This document shows positions 25,951 through 28,083 of a stretch of DNA of 42,812 bases, one piece after another (within the stretch, counting starts at the first letter, position 1; every line of letters starts with the position of its first letter). This DNA is from Methanohalobium sp. GTDB taxonomy: Archaea; Halobacteriota; Methanosarcinia; Methanosarcinales; Methanosarcinaceae. A program made the position numbers and the translations under genes. The stretch lies in contig NZ_JAHENT010000117.1 in assembly GCF_018609725.1 (NCBI RefSeq), positions 1 through 42,812 of the forward strand. The letters run 5' to 3'. The notes below the pieces were generated by a model that saw only the letters and a program-made list of their open reading frames with translations, was not told the DNA's origin and searched no databases.

Positions 25951-26035
25951 GGGAGTTGTAGAACTTATTGTGCCTCATTGGATTAGCCCCAAAACTCAGC
26001 TAATTTTTTTAGTTCTGCAACTCCACCTCTTTGTT
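25951..26035 (+). ncRNA. Candidate small structured RNA (14-bp stem with inner hairpin)
   Basis: Left arm GGAGTTGTAGAACT (25952-25965) pairs with right arm AGTTCTGCAACTCC (26011-26024): 13 Watson-Crick pairs and one G-U. Inside, ATTAGC (25982-25987) pairs with GCTAAT (25999-26004) around an 11-base loop. A T-rich stretch (CTCTTTGTTTT) follows and could terminate transcription. A TATA box lies at the correct distance upstream. The G-U pair rather than perfect identity suggests an RNA stem, not just a DNA palindrome. No known RNA family is recognised, and the strand is inferred from the TATA box. Confidence 0.45.
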
Positions 26036-26194
26036 TTAATGACTATTATTACATCTATAATTATTTGTCATATAGTAGTTATTAACCACAAATTTATTAA
26101 ACTACTACTAACTTCCTATTTATGGGTAATCAATTAATGATTACATTCATAATACAAAAATCACTAATACATTCACAAAAATATTAAAAGATGT

Positions 26195-26684
26195 GATTAT
26201 CCAACGCAAAATAGTTTGGATTTAATAAATATTACAGTGTATACAACATCAGTATTACATTAATAATTAAAGACATATAAAAAACAGAACAAGTTTGATA
26301 TACAATAACAATGATTATGGATTCCAACACATAACAAAGGATTTCGATTTAATAGAAAACTTATAATTGTCACTAATTTGATATAATAATACTTTACAGA
26401 AATCCTTACTTATTCAGAATCATCAACCAAAACGCAATAATCATTGAAATCAAATTAATGATTAAAGAGGTAACTCATTGTAATTCAGACAAATAAAGAT
26501 AAATTGGCATGAGTATCCGGCAGGCAACTCATGTATTAATTGAAAATTCGGTTTCAATCAGAGTACTAACAAAATTAGTGTATTGGGTTTTAAATCAACT
26601 GGTTAATCTCAATAATAGTTCTCGAGTTAGATATCAATTTGCCCATCAAACTTGTTCTGTTTTTCTATTTTGCATTGGATAATC
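26195..26684. repeat. Nested 20-bp inverted repeats spanning 490 bases
   Basis: Outer pair: GATTATCCAACGCAAAATAG (26195-26214) against CTATTTTGCATTGGATAATC (26665-26684), 19 of 20 complementary. Inner pair: AAAAACAGAACAAGTTTGAT (26280-26299) against ATCAAACTTGTTCTGTTTTT (26645-26664), 20 of 20. The two right arms are contiguous, while the left arms are separated by 65 bases (26215-26279). So a roughly 40-bp inverted repeat was either interrupted on its left side or forms a helix with a large bulge. Weaker internal pairs of 7-10 bp exist (26309-26318/26437-26446, 26337-26345/26399-26407, 26371-26379/26572-26580, 26508-26514/26527-26533, 26539-26545/26552-26558), several expected by chance in such AT-rich DNA. 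It is either a large structured RNA or a decayed transposable element. Confidence 0.8.
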
Positions 26685-26724
26685 CATATTTGATATCTAT
26701 AACAGCCATTATGGAGATATTCAT

Positions 26725-28083
26725 ATGCAAAATCAGAACCATAATCAAAATAATCAAAATCAATCAGCAGATACCACTAAATATATCATCCATTCAAAAA
26801 TCAGTGCAAATGGAATAATTGAGCGTCCTGATATAGTAGGAGCAATTTTTGGACAGACAGAAGGGTTGCTCGGAAAAGACCTTGACCTGCGTGACCTTCA
26901 AAAGACTGGTAGAATAGGAAGGATTGAAGTCTTAATAAGCGGTAAAGGCGGTAAATCAAAAGGAACTATTCTGATACCATCCAGCCTTGACAGAGTTGAA
27001 ACTTCTGTTCTGGCAGCTGCCCTTGAAACTATAGATAGAGTGGGACCATGCAGTGCCAAAATAGAAGTAAGTAAAATCGAGGATATACGAGCCACAAAAA
27101 GAAAAAATATTATTGAAAGAGCTCGAATGATTTATTCTTCGATGTTTGATGACAATCTCCCTGAATCTCAGGAAATCGCAGATGAAGTACGTGAATCCCT
27201 GCGAATCCATGAAATGGAATATTATGGTAAAAATAAAATTCCCTGTGGACCGGAAGTATTTGATTCTGATGAAGTGATTCTTGTAGAGGGCCGTGCTGAT
27301 GTACTTAACCTACTGCGTTATGGGATAAAAAATACAATCTGTGTGGGTGGTACAAATATTCCATCCGAAATAGCGGAAATTACAAAAAAGAGAAACGTAA
27401 CTGCATTTACAGATGGTGATCGTGGCGGAGTGCTCATAATAAAAGAGCTTTTACAGGTTGCTAATATCGATTATATTGCCAGAGCTCCTGAAGGTAAAAG
27501 TGTTGAAGATTTGGTACATAGGGAGGTAATGAGGGCACTACAACAAAGAGTCCCGATAGAACAGGCCATGGAATCATATACTTCAAAACCTGTTGAGTCA
27601 TCAAAAACTGGAAAGTCTGCAAGGGATTCTAAACGCAAGGATAACAGGTCACAAGATTTACAAAAATCTTCCAGTTTAAAACCGAAAAATCTGGATAAAG
27701 AAACCGAGGCTGTGTCCCAACAAGAGGTTCAGGAAAGTTTTACTGAAGAGGTTGAAATAACTGAAGAACCTGTTGTGACTGAAGAACCGGAACCCCAGTT
27801 TAAATTTAAACCGCATATAGATGCAATATCCGGTACACTTGATGCACGTCTTCTTGATTCAGGGGAAGAACTGGTTGAGGAAATAGCAGTAAGGGACCTC
27901 GTTAATAAATTGAAAAATTATAATGGTGAGGTAGTAAGTGTGGTTTTTGATGGGGTGATAACCCAGAGGATTCTTGATGTATCATCAGAAAAAGGAATCA
28001 AAAACCTAGTTGGTGTGAAACTGGGAAATGTGACAAAAGTACCCACAGGAATTAACATTTTTACTGAAAACGATTATTGCTAA
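26725..28083 (+). CDS. dnaG: Archaeal DnaG (TOPRIM primase-like, exosome-associated)
   Basis: Archaeal DnaG, 452 residues, a TOPRIM-domain protein with primase activity in vitro that is also a stable subunit of the archaeal RNA exosome, where it helps bind poly(A)-rich RNA. The TOPRIM catalytic glutamate is E188 in VEGRAD and the acidic DxD is D230-G-D232 in FTDGDRGG. An N-terminal domain (about 20-165) with [26 protein letters not shown] is typical. A charged, low-complexity Ser/Lys/Glu linker (about 285-360) joins the conserved C-terminal domain. GGAG at 26713-26716 is the ribosome site. The 857-base noncoding stretch upstream is unusual for a housekeeping gene. A T-rich terminator follows. 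Confidence 0.95.

Follow-up and report, generated by a model that had tools for sequence, protein, structure and literature searches.

A conserved structured RNA ahead of dnaG in Methanohalobium and related archaea, a likely leader of the dnaG mRNA

In Methanohalobium sp., nested inverted repeats precede the gene dnaG, and their arms pair to form the stem that closes a long folded RNA. Here, we describe this element in a 42,812-nucleotide stretch of DNA (contig NZ_JAHENT010000117.1 of assembly GCF_018609725.1; the window) and in related genomes. That it is a conserved structured RNA can be stated with high confidence on computational grounds: structure and position are conserved, selection acts on the structure, and the link to dnaG is exclusive. 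The better of two readings of its role, and in our judgement a likely one, is that the dnaG mRNA begins with this RNA as a 5′ untranslated, cis-regulatory leader. Read in this way, the RNA probably controls the amount of DnaG protein.

The closing stem consists of an outer and an inner helix (table 1). Both arm pairs are found mechanically where a preliminary description of this DNA had placed them, and its account of their layout is accurate: the right arms are contiguous, the left arms lie 65 bases apart, and the sole mismatch of the outer pair is a single transition, which sets C against A in + strand RNA and G against U in − strand RNA. It had also correctly reported dnaG downstream of the arms and a further pair, TAGATATCAA/TTGATATCTA, around the right arms. 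Arms of this kind are not expected by chance, as had been claimed, and the margin is wide; perfect inverted repeats reach 20 nt in the intergenic stretch of 857 nt, compared with a maximum of 9–15 nt in each of 40 dinucleotide shuffles. When folded, the intergenic stretch lies 5.6 s.d. below shuffled sequences as + strand RNA and 5.3 s.d. below as − strand RNA. The 65-base segment is a branch inside the left strand, not a disruption, and its counterpart in many relatives is a much shorter interruption.

Table 1. Parts of the element and its surroundings, in window coordinates; the 5′ hairpin and the two alternative arms were read from the sequence.
Feature	Position	Strand	Remarks
Promoter-like motif AACCACAAATTTATTAA (BRE/TATA-like)	26084–26100	+	about 25–30 nt 5′ of the putative RNA start; position relative to dnaG shared by 38 genomes (12 genera) and also by other families; best site in the genome by sequence profile R1
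5′ hairpin GTAATCA-ATTAA-TGATTAC	26126–26144	+	hairpin at the equivalent place in relatives
Outer closing helix, left strand, core motif GCAAAATAG	26195–26214	+	19/20 complementary to 26665–26684
65-nt segment between the two left strands	26215–26279	+	RNA branch or bulge
Inner closing helix, left strand	26280–26299	+	20/20 complementary to 26645–26664
RNA core enclosed by the closing helix	26300–26644	+	
Alternative arm TAGATATCAA	26628–26637	+	complementary to 26690–26699
Inner closing helix, right strand	26645–26664	+	100% conserved in sister species
Outer closing helix, right strand, U-rich CTATTTTGCAT	26665–26684	+	family form CTATTTTTGCAT
Alternative arm TTGATATCTA	26690–26699	+	
Shine–Dalgarno GGAG of dnaG	26713–26716	+	GGAG before ATG conserved in the family
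dnaG	26725–28083	+	452 aa; always downstream of the element

A common order of parts, namely motif, 5′ hairpin, left strand, core, right strand, Shine–Dalgarno sequence and dnaG ATG, is shared by 38 genomes from 12 genera. The family form of the motif is AACCACAAG-TTATTAA, also written AACCACAA-TTATTAA, which is an archaeal BRE/TATA-like sequence. Left strands in the family resemble GCAAAAATAG, with (G/A)CAAA..ATAG as the counterpart of the outer left strand. The core is poorly conserved between genera and ranges in length from a few hundred to more than 1,000 nt, and the distance from motif to ATG in the 12 genera of the family runs from 475 to 1,836 nt. Wherever the element is found it lies upstream of dnaG and on the same strand. 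Motif and hairpin, used together as a sequence profile, match strongly ahead of dnaG and at no other place in the genomes to a comparable degree; the covariance model built for this 5′ element came without base pairs, because the hairpin failed to align across genera, and served as a sequence profile only. One weak match (G027, L003; E = 3.2e-4) falls in an AT-rich stretch on a contig other than that of dnaG, and was rejected as an ortholog.

The distribution extends beyond the family, and many others among the methane-related archaea are included. A scan of named genomes recovers the motif at 65 of 80 dnaG loci, where five of the 15 motif-less loci have less than about 550 bases of upstream sequence, and where the genomes are partly identical to the 38-genome set, so that the two counts are not independent. 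Genomes with the motif include Methanococcoides, Methanolobus, Methanomethylovorans, Methanohalophilus, Methanosalsum, Methanosarcina, Methanoperedens and Argoarchaeum, while Methanimicrococcus and Methanofrustulum have a long non-coding stretch with no recognisable motif. Other families of the order carry shorter versions, with about 290–670 nt from motif to ATG. Outside the order, a compact form with about 200 nt from motif to ATG is found at L083 and its relatives L174–L176, where it is closed by GGTAAAAATAGCTAA/TTAGCTATTTTTCC at L083, and pairings comparable to this one occur at L082, L084–L086 and L076–L077. Taking all forms together, motif and start codon are separated by about 200 to more than 1,800 nt. 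The upstream regions of dnaG at L182 and L183, which we take to be Archaeoglobus-like from their sequence context, and at several other loci have no such leader. Two high-G+C, haloarchaea-like loci, L089 and L092, have the motif CTATTT(T) ahead of dnaG, at distances of 43 and 68 nt; the haloarchaeal versions that this suggested were rejected, as pairing with an upstream strand does not rise above shuffles.

Pairing of the two strands is maintained while their sequences change. When the 38 genomes of the 12 genera are folded separately, the minimum-energy structure of most contains the closing helix between equivalent strands. A second, inner stacked helix is also present in relatives with different sequences, such as TAATTTACAACAT/ATGTTGTAAATTA in the ANME-3-like group, where the window has AAAAACAGAACAAGTTTGAT/ATCAAACTTGTTCTGTTTTT. 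The left/right duplex of the window, at −39.5 kcal/mol, is more stable than all 32 cross-genus combinations in both directions. Among 60 leaders compared with shuffled left regions, pairing reaches p ≤ 0.05 in 37 and p ≤ 0.01 in 18, the signal being weak in Methanolobus genome by genome and negative in haloarchaea. When 31 closing-helix cores are aligned, pairs occupy 362 of the 465 cells, a count that none of 2,000 reshufflings of partners attains (maximum 356), although one of the 31 rows (L092) is a local hairpin that should not count. The closing stem in 11 Methanosarcina leaders is a long composite stem.

Covariation is clearest in Methanolobus. From 13 leaders of this genus RNAalifold selects the 5′ hairpin and the closing helix, along with two weaker helices, and compensatory changes of the kind expected of a structured RNA are present in the hairpin and in the closing helix. 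One pair of the closing helix is A–U in seven species and G–C in five (compensatory in 5/13), and two pairs of the 5′ hairpin exchange in the same manner (AU in nine and GC in three; CG in five and UA in four). The predicted pairs are standard in 92.5% of cells, compared with 27–52% when the strands are slid, and the covariation score of 0.206 is reached by none of 500 shuffles. Related sequences inflate such shuffles, and the slide control and the exchanges themselves therefore weigh more. The preliminary description had offered two interpretations of the repeats, and the one that stands is a giant hairpin RNA with a bulged or inserted domain, given that the position and structure of the helix are kept and that compensatory changes occur in relatives; the other, a decayed transposable element (MITE), falls on evidence set out below.

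Comparison with a sister species shows where change is tolerated. From promoter motif to start codon the two species are 96.1% identical, whereas dnaG is 94.4% identical (85.8% at third codon positions) and the 215 nt directly upstream of the motif only 85.1%; the RNA is conserved more strongly than the gene that it precedes. The right arms do not differ at any of their 40 bases, and the single substitution within the arms, A to G at 26196 in the sister species, keeps a G–U pair in + strand RNA. The 65-nt segment carries a 4-nt insertion in the sister species, and part of the core (26421–26545) is 99.2% identical. A 571-base query finds one place in the genome of the window and one in the only other genome of the genus among those searched, and sub-queries from the arm region yield nothing in these two genomes beyond AT-rich chance matches.

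Further structures are found in the same neighbourhood. Between the upstream gene and the promoter motif, a hairpin at 25951–26025 has a 14-bp terminal stem (GGAGTTGTAGAACT...AGTTCTGCAACTCC) and a loop of about 45 nt, and is retained in the sister species though both stem strands have changed; it may serve to terminate the upstream gene, or may itself be a small RNA. Methanococcoides-, Methanosarcina- and ANME-3-like genomes share a conserved intergenic hairpin of about 65 nt next to dnaG, GAACGAGCGAGTTTGGGAGTGGGGGGTTA...CCCGCTCGTTC (L032 at about 550–635, L008 at about 590–655, L034 at about 128–190, also L018 and L051), which has no Rfam match in the loci scanned. In the ANME-3-like group, repeated palindromic units (e.g. 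AAGAAAATCCTCGC...GGATTAACTTG) lie between the RNA and dnaG (L021 at about 1225–1440, L020 at about 1190–1420).

As a leader of the dnaG mRNA, the element may work as follows. Transcription would start about 25–30 nt after the promoter-like motif and continue into dnaG, and the RNA would form the 5′ hairpin and, with the left and right arms as its closure, a large domain, whose U-rich right strand lies shortly 5′ of the ribosome-binding site. Whether the closing helix is made or broken would decide how frequently transcription or translation runs on into the gene, with the helix switching in response to a bound protein or ligand. The mechanism we prefer is one in which the closing helix and its U-rich right strand govern read-through or ribosome access to dnaG. 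Judging from complementarity within the window, TAGATATCAA and TTGATATCTA may form a local hairpin around the right arms, probably as a competitor of the closing helix, at the level of the genus only. Sequestration of the Shine–Dalgarno sequence by the segment that follows the helix was considered as a general mechanism and is unsupported overall in a shuffle test; it is not above shuffles in most genera, exceeds them only in genus g6 (one of two genomes) and g8, and is marginal in g13. The preferred candidate for the binder is DnaG itself, since an RNA-binding subunit of the exosome could plausibly control its own synthesis. The archaeal protein (aDnaG) binds RNA with a preference for poly(A) within the exosome (PMC7667871). 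In its widest form, the proposal is of an ancient class of cis-regulatory RNAs spread through much of Halobacteriota, ranging from compact leaders of less than 200 nt to more than 1 kb in Methanosarcina, in which DnaG, the exosome or a ligand controls dnaG through the long-range closing helix; this we put forward tentatively, with more doubt than conviction.

The main rival is an independent, trans-acting large non-coding RNA that has its own promoter, ends at or near the U-rich right strand and sits beside dnaG through conserved gene order. The promoter-like motif would then belong to this RNA, the closing helix would bring its two ends together, a feature of large ornate RNAs, and the run of five U in the right strand would suit archaeal termination. 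The spacing between right strand and ATG bears on both readings. It is about 180–410 nt in Methanosarcina and the ANME-3-like group, which speaks for a separate RNA since dnaG could have its own promoter there, but only about 25–35 nt in the compact relatives, which leaves little obvious room for one. No copy was found away from dnaG in any genome searched, whereas trans-acting RNAs usually leave their neighbours over such evolutionary distances, and we consider an independent RNA unlikely.

Inverted repeats alone cannot tell RNA from DNA, and the arms could also be read as a protein-binding or replication-associated element that acts at the DNA level. Long chromosome contigs often begin at the replication initiator gene, and in several complete chromosome records dnaG with its leader is situated some 24–33 kb into the sequence (contigs of G001, G006, G008, G011 and G031). 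A DNA element, however, is hard to reconcile with interrupted and bulged helices of varying sequence that contain G–U pairs and compensatory changes, with a conserved enclosed core, or with the fixed order of promoter, hairpin, helix and Shine–Dalgarno sequence on the dnaG strand, and it is very improbable. A decayed MITE or a local inverted rearrangement, which inverted arms of about 40 nt with an apparent 65-nt insertion had brought to mind, has next to no probability: the element is single-copy in both Methanohalobium-type genomes and orthologous in the sister species, so the arms are not a MITE, and the same anatomy recurs across many genera at the same place, always 5′ of dnaG, in lieu of the presence and absence between relatives that marks a transposon. 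No target-site duplication was noticed. Local rearrangement was what the preliminary description would have been left with in the absence of copies, transcripts and conservation, and the arms are conserved in relatives.

The leader RNA that we favour matches no family in Rfam 15. When the window and 20 related loci were searched whole and on both strands, no family scored at or above its gathering threshold; the only hit, to mir-1, is at chance level (E 2.8), and a known RNA family was accordingly rejected. The window contains no tRNA or tmRNA. No description of this RNA was found in the open-licence literature: the main text of a dRNA-seq study of Methanolobus psychrophilus does not mention dnaG (PMC5378194), and dnaG and Methanosarcina are absent from the main text of a 2010 survey of 104 candidate structured RNAs (PMC2864571).

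Among large ornate RNAs, GOLLD, ROOL and OLE (PMC12286853) are likewise structured and non-coding with 5′ and 3′ regions joined by a long helix, but they are bacterial and have no sequence or Rfam match to the dnaG element. Unlike them, the dnaG element is tied to one gene and is shorter than 200 nt in some families. In riboswitch-type leaders a P1 helix adjoins the expression platform and closes the structure. The dnaG leader resembles them in that the 3′ strand of its closing helix is found a short way 5′ of the Shine–Dalgarno sequence and, in the window, in a possible competing hairpin; it differs in having no identified ligand or conserved binding core, no Rfam match and a core whose length varies several-fold. 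Comparable too are rne (RNase E) and pnp (PNPase) of E. coli, RNA-decay genes with autoregulatory structured leaders. In these cases a long structured 5′ leader likewise precedes a gene whose product takes part in RNA decay; the leaders are, however, bacterial and of other structure, autoregulation has been tested there and is only proposed for the archaeal leader, and the latter reaches 1 kb or more. To our knowledge, long structured leader RNAs have rarely been described in archaea, and the dnaG RNA, which has no Rfam entry, is family-wide and occurs in shorter form elsewhere, Methanoperedens and Argoarchaeum being among the other families. DnaG is an archaea-specific RNA-binding subunit of the exosome, and an RNA that precedes its gene therefore makes it possible to test directly whether RNA decay in archaea regulates itself, a question that can be approached in genera with genetics such as Methanosarcina.
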